This document shows, piece after piece, positions 11,918 through 61,041 of a DNA stretch of 64,000 nt. The position numbers were made by a program, and so were the translations under genes. Source of the stretch: Granulosicoccus sp. Its GTDB lineage: Bacteria; Pseudomonadota; Gammaproteobacteria; Granulosicoccales; Granulosicoccaceae. The DNA lies in NCBI GenBank assembly GCA_023301795.1, contig JALZVU010000196.1, positions 1-64,000 of the forward strand. The letters run 5' to 3'. Numbering within the stretch: position 1 is the stretch's first letter; every line of letters starts with the position of its first letter. The notes under the pieces were generated by a model. That model was given only the letters and a program-made list of their open reading frames with translations. It was not told the origin of the DNA and did no database searches.

Positions 11918-13921
11918 CTACTCGACAAGGCTAACGACTGACAGATAAATTTTAAACGTTGTACCCTCACCGGGTTGCGACTCCACTTGCAGCCGCCATC
12001 CGTGCGATTCGCACACTTTTTTGCAAATCGCCAGACCCAATCCGGTGCCACGTACATCGCCAGACTGCAATCTTTCGAACGGCTGGAATACTCGCTCCAG
12101 ATACTGGGTATCGATGCCAATACCATTGTCTTTTACACTGATAACCACAGGCCCAAAGGCATCGTCTGGAGAGTCTGTTATTGAGATAGTCACTCTTGCC
12201 GGCGTATCAGGCTTCTTGTACTTCAACGCATTGATGATCAGATTGCGAAACAACTGGGCCATGCCAACGCTGTTGGCATGCACCACTGGCAGAGGGGATA
12301 CAACAAATTCAGCCTGTGCATCGTGTACCGCCAAGTCCAACTCGTCACGCAGCTGCTCAATCAGCTCTGACAGATCGACATGATCAATTTTCTGATTATT
12401 ACTACCAGCACGTGAATACGCCAGCGTCTCCTTGATCAGCAGACTCATGCGCTTTGCAGAACTGCGTATTGTTTTCAGAAAGAACCGGCCATTCTCATCC
12501 AATATCGATTCATAGTCCTCTTCAAGTAACGTGCTGAACTGTTGAAGCTTGCGCAGCGGCTCTTGCAAATCATGCGATGCGATATGAGCAAATTGTTCCA
12601 AATCCAGATTGGCTCGCTGCAGATTCAAATTAATCTCTTTTAGTTCCGCATCTTTGGCTTGCATGCTTTTCTGCGCAGCATCAAGTTGACCCATCGCTGA
12701 GGATAATGTCGACAACTCGCGTAAGAAATAGGGCTGAACCACTGTGGGGAAGCGCTCGCTACCCACATCGTCAAGTTGTTGTGTAATCTGCAACAGAGGC
12801 ACAACCGTCTTACGATACAAAAGCCAGTAACTGATGCCCACCAGAGCCGCCAGGACCAAAGCCGACGTCAACGACAAAAAGGCACGATACTGATCAAGCC
12901 CTCTGAGTGTACTCTCAGCTAGATCATTGACAGTATTGCGCGAACTGTCTCGTAGATCATCAGCCAGGGAGAGGAAGCGAATTGTATAATCACGCACCAG
13001 GCTATCTAACGCACGTTGATCATTTACCTGAGTGACAACTACCTTTTGAACCTTGAACATAGAATCATCGCCAACCAGTTCAGAGCGTAGGTCCCGAAGA
13101 GGCGGCAACAATGCAGCCGCACTGAATCCATCACGTATATAAATACTGCGACTGACCAGAGCACTGATCAGAAGGTCCCGACCCTGCATGGCCAGATCAA
13201 CAGATTCTGCCGTTGTCAGCAGAGGTACACGTTCAACAATGGCGCTAAGTGCCACCACATCCTGAACAAAAAGTAGATAGTCCTGAATGGCTAGATTAAT
13301 CGATTCGTATTCATTGTAGCGGGCAATGAATACGTTCATATCATCAATCGATGATCCCTGCTGTGCATCAGCAGGAAGAGCGGGCTCACTGAAATCATAC
13401 AGTGCACCCGTCAGTCGCACCACATGTTGCTGAACCGTTTTTTCAAACTCAGAGAGAACGCCCATTAAGCGCAGCTTCTGTGCTTCATTGTTTTCACGAT
13501 TTAAAAGCTGCTGCTTTTTTATATCGGCAAGTTCTGTAGTGACATCCGCAATATCAGCCAATGCGTTGTCCAGCTCGCCACGCTCACTCAACTCGATGTT
13601 GCTCAATCTATTCAGCGTCTGGCTTGTTTGCAGGACACTGGCATCAAGCGCAGACCGACGTTGCTCCAGCACGTCGAGGTTCGACGATGAACTCAACAGC
13701 AAGCCTTGAGATTGTAGGCCTGCCGTAGAGGCCGTTAGCTGATAGACCACGTCAAGCTCAGGCAGTAATTCAGAAATCAGTATTTTTTCACGCTTCAGGA
13801 CATCAGAGGTATAGATCCAGATCCCCAGAGCAAGCACACAAAACAGACCCGCAACAACCGCCATAGACAACAGGAATGCCCGTAGCAACGTTGTCTTACC
13901 TATTGGGGTCTGGCCTTGCAT
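11918..13921 (-). CDS. Membrane sensor histidine kinase with large periplasmic domain
   Basis: A 667-residue kinase. Membrane helices are near 13-36 and 350-370 and bracket a periplasmic region of about 310 residues that looks all-helical, with heptad-like Leu spacing as in the TorS sensor domain. A HAMP-like linker and a short coiled coil follow. The phosphoacceptor is the His in IASHDLQEPLRKL (about 450), the N box is RNLIINALKYKK, and the G boxes are VKDNGIGID and GTGLGLAICKK. No receiver domain or adjacent response regulator is present. It is divergent from the solute-binding protein gene at 14035, which suggests the binding protein presents a ligand to this sensor; that is inference. Confidence 0.9.
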   Translation of the reverse strand: MQGQTPIGKTTLLRAFLLSMAVVAGLFCVLALGIWIYTSDVLKREKILISELLPELDVVYQLTASTAGLQSQGLLLSSSSNLDVLEQRRSALDASVLQTSQTLNRLSNIELSERGELDNALADIADVTTELADIKKQQLLNRENNEAQKLRLMGVLSEFEKTVQQHVVRLTGALYDFSEPALPADAQQGSSIDDMNVFIARYNEYESINLAIQDYLLFVQDVVALSAIVERVPLLTTAESVDLAMQGRDLLISALVSRSIYIRDGFSAAALLPPLRDLRSELVGDDSMFKVQKVVVTQVNDQRALDSLVRDYTIRFLSLADDLRDSSRNTVNDLAESTLRGLDQYRAFLSLTSALVLAALVGISYWLLYRKTVVPLLQITQQLDDVGSERFPTVVQPYFLRELSTLSSAMGQLDAAQKSMQAKDAELKEINLNLQRANLDLEQFAHIASHDLQEPLRKLQQFSTLLEEDYESILDENGRFFLKTIRSSAKRMSLLIKETLAYSRAGSNNQKIDHVDLSELIEQLRDELDLAVHDAQAEFVVSPLPVVHANSVGMAQLFRNLIINALKYKKPDTPARVTISITDSPDDAFGPVVISVKDNGIGIDTQYLERVFQPFERLQSGDVRGTGLGLAICKKVCESHGWRLQVESQPGEGTTFKIYLSVVSLVE

Positions 13922-14034
13922 CGTTTTAACAGCCCGTTAGAGTCGGATAAGGTAACCTTGGTTGAATCTGGCACGGATCTGGCCGCCTGTTGCACAGGGT
14001 GTGTAGCCAAGCATGACCAATAGGGCGTTCGAGC

Positions 14035-15477
14035 ATGAAAAATTCCAGAAGACGATTTGTCAAAACAGCGATTGCAGGCGCTTTTCTGCCCAATAGCTTA
14101 AGGCCCAGAGTGAGCCTTGCACAAACCGCACCATGGCACAAGACCATCGCCCAGACAGCTCGCGAACTAAACACGGGCAAAGCCCTTCGCGTTCTCATAC
14201 CTAACGGTTCGGGGGCAAATGTCCGTGCCGCAACCCAAGAGTTTACGCACTTGAGTGGCATACAGTGCGAGATTGAAGAAATTGTTGTTAACGATATTAA
14301 TGTTGAACTCATCCTGCGCGCAAACTCAGCAGACGAAACGGTGGACGTGGCACTACCCGCAACCTTTGGCATGACAGATCTGGTTCAGGCTAATGCCATC
14401 ATGGCATTAGATGATTTAGCCAAACGCTATGAACCTGAAGGCTTTTCGGATGGGTATCTGTATCGAAAAGGTGACCACTATCAGGACAAACTGTACGGCT
14501 ATCAGACCGATGGCGATGCCTACCTGATGTTCTACAACAAAGCCATGATGCAAGACCCCGGCGAGAATGAAGCCTATTTCAAGGCAAGCGGCAAACAGCT
14601 GGAGCCTGCATCGAGCTGGGAAGATCTTGACCGCATGATGGCCTTCTTTCATCGACCTGACGAGGCGATATACGGCGGTAGCCTGTTTCGTAATCCTGGG
14701 TATCTGGTGTGGGAATGGTGGGCACGTTTTCATGCCAAAGGTTATCTGCCCTTCAGCGACACCATGCAGCCGAATATCAACAACGAGGCAGGCGTGGCGG
14801 CCCTTGAGGAGCTTATTGCCGCAACAGATTCACTAACCCCAGACTCCCGCACAAACGGCCTGTTTGACAACTGGGCAGATTTTGGTCACGGCAATGTCTT
14901 TTGCAACATCGGCTGGGGTGGAACACAAAAACATCTCATGTCAAACAGCAACATGCGCGACAACCTCATACACAGCGCATTACCCGGGCCTGTCATTAAC
15001 GAGACGCCAAGCACCATGGGTTATTTTAACTGGGGCTGGGATTACACTGTCAGCACCAGTTCGGCCCAACCAGAGCTTGCCTATCTGCTGGCTTTGTTCT
15101 GCGTCACACCCCATGTCTCCGGACTTGCAGTACGAGAGTCTGAGGGGTTTTTTGATCCGTTCCAGACTAACCACTACGAGGATCAGGCGATTATCGATGT
15201 GTATGGCAGCTCGTTCCTGACTGCACATAAAAACAGCCTGGTAAACAGTATCCCCGATTTGTACCTCAGCGGTCAGAGCAATTACCTTGACGCGTTACGA
15301 CAACAAATTCTGGAGACCGTAGCCGGTAAAGTTAGCGCACAGCAGTCACTGAATATTTGCGCGCAACAATGGTCGCATATCACACGACGGCTTGGTACAC
15401 GCTCCCAAACGCAACAATGGCAACAGCTGGTCGCAACCTACCCTGAATCACTACAAAACAATTTACGTGGTCGCTGA
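14035..15477 (+). CDS. Tat-exported extracellular solute-binding protein
   Basis: A 480-residue periplasmic binding protein of the family 1 (sugar-type) fold. The N-terminus MKNSRRRFVKTAIAGAFLP has the twin-arginine motif, with a likely cleavage near SLAQTAP. The first lobe starts ALRVLIPNGSGANVRAATQEF, and the hinge part has DGDAYLMFYNKAMMQDPGENE, as in ABC sugar-binding proteins. No permease or ATPase gene is near. The only close partner is the divergent sensor kinase across a 113-bp gap, so a sensory role is plausible. The ligand is unknown. Confidence 0.87.
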   Translation: MKNSRRRFVKTAIAGAFLPNSLRPRVSLAQTAPWHKTIAQTARELNTGKALRVLIPNGSGANVRAATQEFTHLSGIQCEIEEIVVNDINVELILRANSADETVDVALPATFGMTDLVQANAIMALDDLAKRYEPEGFSDGYLYRKGDHYQDKLYGYQTDGDAYLMFYNKAMMQDPGENEAYFKASGKQLEPASSWEDLDRMMAFFHRPDEAIYGGSLFRNPGYLVWEWWARFHAKGYLPFSDTMQPNINNEAGVAALEELIAATDSLTPDSRTNGLFDNWADFGHGNVFCNIGWGGTQKHLMSNSNMRDNLIHSALPGPVINETPSTMGYFNWGWDYTVSTSSAQPELAYLLALFCVTPHVSGLAVRESEGFFDPFQTNHYEDQAIIDVYGSSFLTAHKNSLVNSIPDLYLSGQSNYLDALRQQILETVAGKVSAQQSLNICAQQWSHITRRLGTRSQTQQWQQLVATYPESLQNNLRGR

Positions 15478-15585: not shown

Positions 15586-16146
15586 ATGGCTAAGCTTCAC
15601 TCCACACCTTCCAATCAGCGTTTTTCCTGGCTTAATGCACCAGCTATGAACACCGCTGCAAACGGTCCCTGGACCCTCTCAGAAAACAAGGCAGTAACCT
15701 CACAAAACCCGACTGACTGCTGGGTAAACTTGCCTGCTAAAACCTTATTAACTCTACTGGCTTCAGGCTTGACTGCAGCTCAATCCCAAAGTGCCACAAT
15801 ATTAGCAACAACCCACGATCATGCGCATTCTACGTGTGGTCGATTCGAAATACGGCGTCTTAGACAACTCGGTGACAGTGCTCGACTATTTGTTCAACAG
15901 AGAGACGATTACTTTCAGAGGTTGGAGCTGTATGTCGAAAACGAACTCATTGCAGCATTCAACGAACCTGTCTGGCCTCACTTGCAGCAATCCGCCATCA
16001 GCGTAAGGGTTAGTGTGCCAGCGGCCTGCATACAATTTCTGGAATTCATAACAGCTCATAAAACTGAAACTGAAACCCAGACGCTGTGTGAAAGCGCCAA
16101 TCAGGCCGATATTGGCAAGCCCGACGAGGCAGTCGCTGCAGCCTGA
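15586..16146 (+). CDS. Hypothetical protein, unrecognised
   Basis: I do not recognise this 186-residue protein. It has no signal peptide or clear membrane helix. The N-terminal 60 residues are rich in Asn, Ser and Thr and look flexible; the middle, from CGRFEIRRLRQLGDSARLFVQQRD to VSVPAACIQFLEFI, has alternating strand and helix character; the tail is Thr/Glu-rich (KTETETQT). It starts 108 bases after the solute-binding protein and converges with the CheB-CheR gene, ending 21 bases from it. The ATG has only a weak binding site upstream. Position suggests a link to the neighbouring signalling genes, but nothing in the sequence proves it. Confidence 0.6.
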   Translation: MAKLHSTPSNQRFSWLNAPAMNTAANGPWTLSENKAVTSQNPTDCWVNLPAKTLLTLLASGLTAAQSQSATILATTHDHAHSTCGRFEIRRLRQLGDSARLFVQQRDDYFQRLELYVENELIAAFNEPVWPHLQQSAISVRVSVPAACIQFLEFITAHKTETETQTLCESANQADIGKPDEAVAAA

Positions 16147-16167: not shown

Positions 16168-19100
16168 TTAGCTAAGCACTGGGACCGGAGCGGAACTGCT
16201 TGAATTTATAGCGTGCCTTACGCTCAGTTCAAGCAGCAGAGGCGACAACTCAGCCTTATTTAGAAAATACGACAACATCTTGTCCGGAATCTCTTGCTCT
16301 AGCTCGCTACGGCTATAGCCTGACATCAGTATCAGTGGCAAGGACTCGTTGTAGTCACGTATTTTCCGAGCCAGATCATCAGCTGTCTCCATGCCCAAAC
16401 GATAATCAACAAGACACAAATCGATATCATCATTACGCAGCGCCTGAATGGCCTCATCCACGGTTGAAGCATCAAAAACTGCGACGGTTAACGAGCTTAT
16501 TTTTTCAAGATGTCGCCTGATCACGCGTCGATCACTCTCGCTGTCATCGACGATCAATACCCTGAGCTTTGCAGGGAGCTCCACCGTACTGCCTGAGAAC
16601 TTGTGCCTTGCCAGAGTGCTTTTGATCCGGTGGTCCTCGTAAGCATCCAAGCGGGGCGACAAATCCGTAATCATAATGGTGACTGCAGCACTTTTTTCAT
16701 CACCCAGAACAGACGAGGCATACGGTAATAGTTTGATCTGTACAGGCGATCCACCAACGGTGAATACCTCACGATACACGCTGTGATGCGTGCGCCTGAC
16801 CGTCTCGATATCATCGTGCAAGTGGATATACTCCAGCTCGTTAGAGATATGGTGCAGTGGACGACCTATATCGCTGGAAAGCAGATTGAAGTACTTCGCT
16901 GACACCGCCGTATATTTACGAATAAGCGTTTTTTCATCAAGAAAAATAATACCCACTGATGTGGCAACGAGGATATTGTCCATATCATCATTGACCGTCA
17001 TAAGCTCCTCTATTTTCTCCTGATGTTCGCAGTTAACGGTATACAGCTCCTCATTCACTGACTGCAGCTCTTCATTGGTACTCTGCAATTCCTCATTCGA
17101 AGACATCAGCTCTTCGTTGGCAGATTGAAGCTCTTCGTTAGTGGTCTCCAGCTCCTCGTTGGATATCTGCAAGTGTTCCTGCTTATGCAACAATTCGTTT
17201 TCCAGATCACGAATACGCTGCTGCGTCTCTTCGTTATAATCATAGTCACCCGCGATTTTACGAGAAGCCGGTGCTGCATCTCCGTCAGTAAACACCACAG
17301 AAAAATACGCATCGTCACCGTTTTTTTCAGGGAAATGGGTCACCTGCATATCCACCAGCGCAGGTTTGTCATTCACAGTAGTCTGAATATTGGAGTAAAA
17401 CACCGGCTTAACTTCAGTCTTTGAACGCGATAGTGCTGTGTCAAGAGCCACAGACAATTCACTGACAATAATTTCATGAATGTCGGTAGACACACGGCCT
17501 ACCGGAAACCGTATCAAATATTTGTTAGCATCGCCGTAGATATGCACCGCCTGATGCTCGGAATTCAGGATAAGGCAGGCAGGTACAAAATCATTGATCA
17601 GATGATCTTTGACGTGTTCAAAGCGATTTGATGCCGCGGTATGCGATCGATAGCTGCGTAATAAATTGGATACTGGCCGCATTCCCAATGTCGGTTTAGC
17701 TGATCCTGCATTGTTGGCACCCGCTAGTGGTAACCGAGTATTAGTGATTTTCTCATAAATCCTGAATCGTTCATGCATCACCTTGTAATGCGTTTTTAAT
17801 TCGCCTACGGATTCGGAAGAACCAAAGAACACCTTCGCACGATCTCGTAGGGAGAAATGAAACGATGACATCACCACCTTTTGCACAGCGTGCTGAAAGT
17901 AGATGAGAACATTACGACAGGTAATCAGATCAATGTTCGAGAAAGGCGGATCGTTGATCATATTGTGGGAGGCAAACACCACCATCTTTCTGAGTGAGGG
18001 CCGTATCTCGTACTCGGCACCCACTTTCACAAAATACCGCGCAAGCCTTTCTTTGGAAACATCATGAATAATCTCTTCACGGTATCGAGCCGTGGATGCC
18101 AGAGCAATGGCATCCACATCTGCATCGGTGGCAAAGATTTTTACTCGAACCTCTTTCTCATATTTCTGGAATGCCTCGTCAATGGTCATGGCCAAAGAGT
18201 ATGCTTCTTCGCCCGTTGAACACCCTGCCACCCAGAAACGCAATTCGCGATTCTCTTTAAGCTCAGCAACCAAGGGCTCCACAACCTGACGGGCAAGAAA
18301 CTCCCAGGCATGATCATCACGGAAAAAGCTAGTGACGTTAATCAAAAGCTCACGCCCTAATGTCTCTAGTTCAGTTTTAGACGACTGCAGCAGATTCAGG
18401 TATTCAAACTGGCTTTGCACCTGATTGATACCCATGCGACGCTCGATACGACGCGCCACTGTTGATGCTTTGTACTGACTAAAATCAATGCCATTGCTAG
18501 CCTTTAGCAAGCTGTAAATTATTGAGAGCACACTCTCTTCAGTGTTGCTGGTAGCGCGCAATACCGAACGAACGCCACGCACCATTGAATTTTTAAGGTA
18601 CGTAGCCAGATATACCGCCAACTCTTCAGGTGGCAAAATAAAATCCGCCGTTCCAGTCTGGGCTGCGTTGTAAGGCATGCCATCAAACTTTGATGATTCA
18701 CGGTCCTGAACAAGAATCAAGCCACCTGCCTCCTTGATAGCTTTGATACCTCGGCTTCCGTCGCTACCCGTGCCTGAGAGCACAATACCCACGGCACGAT
18801 GCTTGGCGTCAATGGCTAGTGATCTGAAAAAATGATCGATAGGCAGGTTCACACCACCCGCTCGAACCTGTTCACTCAGATACAGACTGCCATCTACCAG
18901 AGTGATGTTTTTCTTGGGCGGGATAAGGTAGATCGCGTTGGCCAACACCTCCACACCATGAACCACAGTCTCAACAGACATACTCGTGTTGCGCGCCAGC
19001 AACTCGTCCATCAGGCTTTCAAAATCAGGTGACAGATGCTGCACTACGATAAAGGCTGCATCACTGTCTGTGCTCATGTGATCAAAGAAGTCTCTCAAAG

Positions 19101-19347
19101 CCTCTAATCCACCTGCCGATGCCCCGATACCAACGTACAGAATGGGCGATGCATCTTGCTCCAACCTACTGGGCGCTTCAGCGTCAATGTCAGACATCAC
19201 AGCGCCCTCAACGAGTGAGTGTGCTGTGCTATCGCCCAGCGTCAGAACAGGCTGTGAATCCACAGCGACTTCACTCTGATGATTCGCTTGTTCAGTAGCA
19301 CTGGCAGCTTCAGAGGCCGTCTTGTCTAACTCGGGTTTTTCATTCAT
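16168..19347 (-). CDS. CheB-CheR fusion with PAS and C-terminal receiver domain
   Basis: A 1059-residue signalling protein. Domains in order: CheB methylesterase (about 68-250), with the catalytic Ser in GIGASAGG (Ser77), His104 in VVQHLS and Asp in [10 protein letters not shown]; CheR methyltransferase (about 275-545), with [10 protein letters not shown] and the SAM loop [13 protein letters not shown]; a coiled coil (about 725-785) with repeated NEELxS heptads; a PAS domain with [16 protein letters not shown]; and a receiver (about 930-1040) with [19 protein letters not shown] for the phospho-Asp and MSGYS. The family often carries a histidine kinase at the end, but here a receiver takes that place, so it likely takes phosphate from another kinase. 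No chemoreceptor gene is nearby. Confidence 0.93.
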
Positions 19348-59149: not shown

Positions 59150-60124
59150 ATGCTCGCCTTCATATCCAGACGGCTCCTTCAATCGGTGTTCGTCATGCTG
59201 GCAGTCAGCCTGATTGCTTTTACACTGTTTCGATTTGTTGGCGACCCGGTTGCACAGATGGTCGGACAGGAAACCTCGGTGGCCGATCAGGAGCGCATTC
59301 GTGACTCACTGGGTTTAAACGATCCGATCACAACGCAGTTCGTCAGCTTTGTCAGCGATCTGATCACAGGGAATTTCGGCTTCTCCTACCGTACCCGACA
59401 ACCTATCAGCGAAATGATTCTGTCACGTATGCCAGCCACGATTGAACTGGGTATTGTCTCGTTGCTTATTTCACTATTGATTGGGGTACCTGCTGGTATC
59501 TACACAGCGCTTCATCGCGGCGGTGCTATTGCTAACACCATACTGGTAACAACGCTTATCGGTATATCCATCCCCACGTTTGTAATCGGTATATTTCTGA
59601 TTTTCATATTCGGTGTGCAACTGGGCTGGTTACCCACATTTGGTCGTGGTGATGTCGTCACAATAGGCTGGTGGCAAACCAATTTTCTCACCATCGACGG
59701 CTGGCGCTCTCTACTGCTACCCGCATTAACACTCGGCGTATACCAGTTGACGCTTACCATGCGCCTGGTGCGATCAGAAATGCAGGATGTCATGAAAACC
59801 GATTTCATCAAGTTTGCAAGAGCACGGGGTATAAACCGGCATTCCATTCACTACAACCACGCGCTTCGCAATACGATGGTACCGGTGATCACTATTATCG
59901 GTTTGCAATTTGGTGGCGTCATCGCCTTCTCGATTGTTACAGAATCCGTGTTTCAGTGGCCTGGCATGGGTCTCTTGTTTCTTGATTCAATTCGTTACGT
60001 TGATATCCCGGTGATGTCGGTTTATCTGGTGTTAATTGCTTTGATGTTTGTGGTTATCAACCTTATCGTTGATTTACTGTATGCCGTAATCGATCCGCGA
60101 GTGCGCACCGGAGCAACCCACTGA
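59150..60124 (+). CDS. Opp/Dpp-type ABC transporter permease (first)
   Basis: A 324-residue inner-membrane permease of the peptide/nickel type. It starts MLAFISRRLLQSVFVMLAVSLIAFTLFRFVGDP, and the EAA loop is RARGINRHSIHYNHALRNTMVPV. About six membrane segments follow the usual DppB plan. Its stop overlaps the next gene's ATG (TGATG), so the permeases are translated together. Confidence 0.92.
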   Translation: MLAFISRRLLQSVFVMLAVSLIAFTLFRFVGDPVAQMVGQETSVADQERIRDSLGLNDPITTQFVSFVSDLITGNFGFSYRTRQPISEMILSRMPATIELGIVSLLISLLIGVPAGIYTALHRGGAIANTILVTTLIGISIPTFVIGIFLIFIFGVQLGWLPTFGRGDVVTIGWWQTNFLTIDGWRSLLLPALTLGVYQLTLTMRLVRSEMQDVMKTDFIKFARARGINRHSIHYNHALRNTMVPVITIIGLQFGGVIAFSIVTESVFQWPGMGLLFLDSIRYVDIPVMSVYLVLIALMFVVINLIVDLLYAVIDPRVRTGATH

Positions 60125-61041
60125 TGCTATCGCGACTGAAAAGAGCATCTGTCGAGAACGAGCTTTTATATCTGTTCCTGCACAGTCGTGTGGCGCAGCT
60201 TGCTGCATTAATCAGTGTACTGATGATGGGCGCGGCGGCCCTTGCTGCTTTTGTGGCACCTAGCAACCCCTACGATCTGGCAAGCTTTGACCTACTGGAT
60301 TCGCTGCTACCACCCAGCTACATGGACGGCGGTGATGCTCGGTTTCTGATAGGCACCGATGACCAGGGACGGGATTTGTTGTCAGCCATTCTCTACGGCA
60401 CACGCCTGTCACTTACCGTCGGCTTGCTATCCGTAGCCTTTGCCAGCATTCTTGGGGTCACACTTGGCTTGATGGCTGGCTACCTGGGTGGCCGCTTTGA
60501 TACGATTGTCATGCGTATTGCCGATGTACAGCTCAGCTTGCCAGCAATACTGACGGCACTACTAATTGATGGCATTGCACGCGGCATACTGCCACAACAA
60601 CGACACGATGATCTGATGCTCGTGGTGCTGACGGTGGCCATCGGATTATCGCTATGGGTGAATTTCGCTCGCACCGCACGCGCCTCCACTTTTGTTGAAA
60701 AAAACAAAGAGTACGTACAAGCTACACAAATAATGGGCATGCATCCCCTTCGGATCATGTTCGTACAGATACTGCCCAATATCCTTGGGCCCATCATGGT
60801 GATATTAACAGTCGACCTAGCTGTCGCTATTTTATTGGAGGCCACCTTATCGTTTCTGGGAGTTGGTGTTCCACCGAACCAACCATCACTAGGCACGTTA
60901 ATTCGAATTGGCACCGAGTATCTGTTTTCAGGAGAATGGTGGATCGTTATATTCCCAAGCCTTACCTTGGTCGTACTCATCGTCGCAGTCAATGTACTCG
61001 GTGATTTCCTGCGCGACGCGCTCAACCCCAAGCTGCGATAG
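60124..61041 (+). CDS. Opp/Dpp-type ABC transporter permease (second)
   Basis: A 305-residue DppC-like permease. After a short N-terminus come one helix (about 25-45), a periplasmic stretch with FLIGTDDQGRDLLSAILYGTRLSL (the conserved GTDxxGRD), and five more helices. The EAA loop is ATQIMGMHPLRIMFVQILPNILGP. It pairs with the preceding permease to form the channel. Confidence 0.93.
   Translation: MLSRLKRASVENELLYLFLHSRVAQLAALISVLMMGAAALAAFVAPSNPYDLASFDLLDSLLPPSYMDGGDARFLIGTDDQGRDLLSAILYGTRLSLTVGLLSVAFASILGVTLGLMAGYLGGRFDTIVMRIADVQLSLPAILTALLIDGIARGILPQQRHDDLMLVVLTVAIGLSLWVNFARTARASTFVEKNKEYVQATQIMGMHPLRIMFVQILPNILGPIMVILTVDLAVAILLEATLSFLGVGVPPNQPSLGTLIRIGTEYLFSGEWWIVIFPSLTLVVLIVAVNVLGDFLRDALNPKLR

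Follow-up and report, generated by a model that had tools for sequence, protein, structure and literature searches.

A sensor histidine kinase gene and a gene for a solute-binding protein (SBP) stand back to back in the window, by which we mean the whole 64,000-nucleotide stretch of Granulosicoccus DNA analyzed here (contig C196), and the question raised by this locus is whether the SBP is a receptor that is read by the kinase or a component of a transporter. The TorT-TorS(-TorR) system, responsible for TMAO sensing in E. coli and Vibrio, is the closest point of comparison; its binding protein TorT is of type I, as is LuxP. We consider it likely that the locus encodes a three-component sensor working like TorT-TorS, in which an SBP of the type-II sugar family takes the place of the type-I TorT. 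The divergent arrangement, which had been described from the DNA alone in an earlier sequence-only reading, was confirmed with both genes at the coordinates given in Table 1. No shared motif is evident in the intergenic region across the six pairs compared.

Table 1. Coordinates of the kinase-SBP locus, its parts and other genes of the window mentioned in the text.
Feature	Coordinates	Strand	Details or basis
Sensor histidine kinase	11918..13921	-	667 aa; HisKA + HATPase_c; without receiver or HPt domain
Kinase HATPase_c, residues 551-661	11939..12271	-	Pfam
Kinase HisKA dimerisation/phospho-acceptor domain, residues 441-507	12401..12601	-	Pfam
Kinase second transmembrane segment, about residues 347-369	12815..12883	-	hydropathy
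Kinase periplasmic all-helical sensor domain, predicted TorS fold, about residues 37-346	12884..13813	-	AlphaFold model, structure search
Kinase first transmembrane segment, about residues 14-36	13814..13882	-	hydropathy
Divergent intergenic region	13922..14034	.	113 bp between start codons; coordinates
SBP gene	14035..15477	+	480 aa
SBP twin-arginine leader, SRRRFVK	14035..14124	+	SBP alignment
Mature SBP, CUT1/SBP_bac_1 type	14125..15477	+	450 aa; sequence family
Protein without Pfam match	15586..16146	+	186 aa
CheB-CheR-PAS protein with C-terminal receiver domain	16168..19347	-	1059 aa; without adjoining chemotaxis genes
BPD_transp_1 permeases	59483..61038		only ones on contig C196

The kinase and its sensor domain

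The kinase core is conventional, with an invariant H450 in the SHDLQEPL motif of the HisKA domain, and at Pfam thresholds the protein contains no receiver, HPt, PAS or HAMP domain. By hydropathy it has two hydrophobic segments, near residues 12-36 and 347-369. Its periplasmic region of ~310 residues is predicted to be all-helical. An AlphaFold model of residues 1-430, built from six sequences, was likewise all-helical with a mean pLDDT of 80, and it shows the two stacked helical bundles that characterize the periplasmic domain of TorS. When this model was searched with Foldseek, the only hits at E <= 0.001 were six TorS chains, with the TorS-TorT complex ranking first. Alignment with VIA gave Z 20.2 for 3O1I (2.5 A over 264 residues) and Z 19.9 for 3O1H (2.4 A over 265 residues), the TorS matches as a whole ranging from Z 18.6 to 20.2, and the next bacterial sensor matches were the ligand-binding domains of McpS at Z 16. 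It should be noted that helical bundles can reach a Z of about 13-14 without kinship, so the TorS match at Z ~20 lies well above this background. As modeled, the periplasmic domain of the window kinase has the TorS fold, TorS beating every other solved structure.

The resemblance is one of fold. Searching PDB sequences with profiles of the sensor families returned no TorS match, and it was the fold comparison alone that found TorS. The TorS equivalog model of NCBIfam (TIGR02956) scored 104 bits on the window kinase vs the 676.5 required, the best stretch being the kinase core. The TorS-like plan put forward in the sequence-only reading thus stands for the sensor, where the top Foldseek and VIA matches are all TorS and include TorS-TorT complexes, but not for the hybrid relay, as the receiver and HPt that follow the kinase core in TorS are missing and only HisKA and HATPase_c are present.

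Family and export of the binding protein

The N-terminus of the SBP (MKNSRRRFVKTAIAGA) carries a Tat-type leader with the motif SRRRFVK. The RR pair of this leader is invariant in 12 aligned SBPs and is found throughout the 17 rows of the clade described below; together with the hydrophobic stretch this predicts export by the Tat route, as had been suggested earlier. RR leaders occur in several relatives of the transporter type as well, however, and the Tat leader is therefore no mark of a sensing role.

On the single SBP sequence Pfam SBP_bac_1 scored 23.6 bits, under its cut-off of 26, while a profile of 12 SBP sequences matched the trehalose/maltose-binding protein 1EU8 (E 1.1e-10, positions 67-449) and also other sugar SBPs. 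By this profile similarity, which spans the full domain, the protein is assigned to the CUT1/family-1 sugar SBPs, and it is not a type-I binding protein of the TorT kind. The earlier view that the SBP is of the sugar/family 1 type, and that the two proteins would make a different pair from TorS and its type-I partner TorT, is borne out by this match. The structural model of the SBP, predicted from six sequences, reached a pLDDT of only 42, so that the fold assignment rests on sequence.

Conservation and co-divergence of the pair

The conservation of the pair was surveyed in 48 genomes of the family. Close SBPs (59-62% identity) occur in six genomes including that of the window, all of them Granulosicoccus, and in 6/6 of these the SBP gene is adjacent to and divergent from the orthologous kinase gene. 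The sensor domain of the kinase is present in 7/48 genomes, in six of which the SBP accompanies it. The pairing is found again wherever a close relative carries the SBP, and is thus beyond chance. Beyond the kinase the LDH and SDR genes are also retained among close relatives; the SBP side varies: four loci have CheB/CheR and EAL genes downstream of the SBP, and in two a recG-like gene follows directly. As obligate partners the CheB/CheR-PAS-receiver and PAS-GGDEF-EAL genes were rejected, since they are missing there from 2/6 loci. The 1059-aa CheB-CheR-PAS gene of the window lies between SBP and recG in only some Granulosicoccus, and the 186-aa protein is kept after the SBP (36-39%) solely in genomes with a CheB/CheR gene at that place.

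A second SBP clade (40-47% identity) was found in the same genus and in another genus. In five genomes (G020, G028, G031, G033, and G006) the second-clade SBP is divergent from a kinase which is adjoined by a one-domain regulator, located after the kinase in four of these loci and before it in G006; in G001 the SBP lies at a contig edge. Alignment of the two kinase sensor families with hhalign gave a probability of 96.8 over 343 columns, a value to be read with the caution usual for helical proteins. The same SBP also occurs in four alphaproteobacterial genomes, where its gene diverges from that of a related kinase; in three of them a one-domain regulator adjoins the kinase. The linkage of SBP and kinase is therefore conserved in two bacterial classes, and the pair held both in the Granulosicoccaceae and in some alphaproteobacteria when the gene-pair conservation proposed as a check was followed up. 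In two alphaproteobacterial loci (L073:8887-9636 and L074:7142-7981) the SBP is followed by a small soluble-looking protein which on inspection by eye looks like the phospho-acceptor domain of a histidine kinase, a hint that the pathway may include a second kinase. In G236 a Tat SBP of the same clade is followed by a regulator and by a kinase whose sensor region is shorter and of a different kind (L058:112-3550), and the SBP may thus have switched its kinase partner. In G257 the SBP is a distant one and its neighbor is a hybrid kinase.

A tree of 33 SBPs placed 17 rows together in a single clade with support 100/100, to the exclusion of the SBPs of transporter operons: the SBPs of the window and of its five close relatives, those of the second clade, the four from alphaproteobacteria, and that of G236. 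A kinase was seen for 16 of these SBPs, the remaining one being at a contig edge. The closest sequences outside the clade are encoded in ABC-transporter operons; the distant SBP of G257 also falls outside. The distance matrices of SBP and kinase are correlated with an r of 0.97 for the full kinase and 0.94 for its first 380 residues, with 0/5000 permutations as high, it being understood that common descent inflates r. Even so, the type of kinase goes with the type of SBP inside a single genus.

The genome G021 (98% complete) is the exception, in that it holds an intact kinase orthologue and an upstream response regulator but no detectable SBP, so the kinase may act alone or with another partner. 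At this locus (L051:8217-10962) a one-domain response regulator gene replaces the SBP upstream of the kinase, and a contig end is close. Both this genome and the position of the McpS domains directly after TorS among bacterial sensors would fit a kinase which binds its ligand itself, in the manner of McpS-type chemoreceptors, in its own helical domain, the SBP being a co-controlled neighbor and no signaling partner. We regard this as unlikely, because the adjacency of SBP and kinase repeats in two classes amid changing surroundings, because a single SBP clade is tied to kinases and diverges in correlation with them, and because McpS clearly ranked below TorS.

Transporters, mechanism and significance

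A more improbable explanation still is that the SBP delivers its ligand to an ABC transporter whose genes lie elsewhere in the genome, whether or not it also takes part in signaling, although dual-use SBPs are known in some three-component systems (PMC10384115). The SBP is not encoded with a MalFGK-type transporter, and no permease was found within about 44 kb of it on contig C196, in agreement with the earlier observation that no transporter genes are near. The genome as a whole gave 134 permease matches, among them two MalFGK-type sets, on C154 and C189, without an adjoining SBP gene, and these speak for such a transporter. Against this, 19/24 MalG-type permease matches have an SBP within 2.5 kb, and the C154 and C189 sets are explained otherwise: the C154 permease shares 97% identity with, and is a duplicate of, that of C44, which has its own SBP, and the C189 set adjoins its own SBP in G020, G026, and G043. 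Of these, G043 has both the C189-type and the window-type SBP and G026 has no window-type SBP. In the window genome the C189 genes are of alpha-glucoside type and are without the SBP found beside them in relatives (G000:C189, L114); this SBP has been lost, moved or cut off in assembly. By eye, the C4 permease is adjoined by a larger SBP-like gene. The permease follow-up covered MalG-type matches other than those at contig edges on C39 and C143. There is also no close paralogue of the SBP in the genome. A matching permease or ATPase elsewhere, which would have spoken against a dedicated receptor, was thus looked for across the genome and no clear candidate emerged. That the two genes are neighbors merely because gene order was inherited, and have no functional connection, is very improbable, for while close relatives have a long gene order in common and keep LDH and SDR beside the kinase, the pair stays intact where the SBP side is rearranged by presence or absence of CheB/CheR and EAL genes, and it recurs in distant genomes with unrelated surroundings.

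The reading as a three-component sensor draws on the gene structure, the domains, the TorS-fold model, the SBP family, the pairing, the co-divergence, and the lack of a clear cognate permease. From these we infer physical binding, ligand class, direction of signaling, response regulator, and output as follows. The SBP would reach the periplasm via Tat and bind a small ligand, probably carbohydrate-like. In its loaded (or empty) form it would then dock onto the dimeric kinase at its periplasmic domain of TorS fold, and this docking would shift helices through the membrane and so set kinase activity. Phosphate would pass from the kinase to a single-domain response regulator, whose gene lies beside the kinase in most sister systems and would lie elsewhere in the window genome; no response regulator gene is found beside the window kinase, and weak candidates are present on C250 and C76. 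The SBP would no longer serve any transporter. For the wider history, we see about an even chance that a lineage of sugar-transporter SBPs parted from its transporter on a single occasion and turned into a receptor which is exported by Tat and docks on a TorS-fold kinase. The result would be a family of sensors in gamma- and alphaproteobacteria with a type-II binding protein in the position of TorT, and with a single-domain regulator and not a transcription factor as output.

The locus resembles TorT-TorS in its two-transmembrane kinase with a double helical-bundle periplasmic domain (Z 20 for the model), in the soluble periplasmic binding protein encoded beside it, and in having no transporter. 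It differs in that the SBP is a type-II CUT1/family-1 protein related to the trehalose/maltose-binding protein whereas TorT is of type I, in its Tat leader, and in a kinase without receiver and HPt, the sister systems using a one-domain regulator. As in LuxP-LuxQ, a kinase would read a periplasmic binding protein, but there the binding protein is of type I. The LuxQ sensor is in addition a double PDC (PMC8534201), in contrast to the helical bundles here. In CuaD-CuaS-CuaR, which responds to cellobiose, the kinase is bound by a dedicated SBP and transport falls to a second one; CuaD is a lipoprotein whose gene shares an operon with those of CuaS and of a DNA-binding YesN/AraC regulator, and the transporter operon adjoins (PMC10384115). 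This system and similar ones in Firmicutes share with our locus a sugar SBP reserved for sensing and a two-transmembrane kinase, and CuaD-CuaS-CuaR provides the experimental precedent for such a reserved SBP; unlike it, the window SBP has a Tat-type leader and a divergently oriented gene, the sensor has the TorS fold by model, and no transporter is near. The SBPs of CUT1 sugar ABC transporters (SBP_bac_1) belong to the same sequence family, but those linked to kinases group in a clade of their own and have no permeases.

SBP-dependent three-component systems are known, as are TorS-fold sensors, and what appears to be new is that a TorS-fold sensor is combined with an SBP of CUT1 type; no such pair was found in the literature searched, which does not extend to the main TorS-TorT paper (PMC3625974). 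If the proposed reading is true, the TorS-type helical sensor reads binding proteins of two structural classes, and the members of this CUT1 SBP clade would be receptors and not transport parts, even though pipelines would annotate them as ABC-transporter substrate-binding proteins. The clade also offers natural pairs for mapping which surface of the SBP talks to which helices of the sensor.
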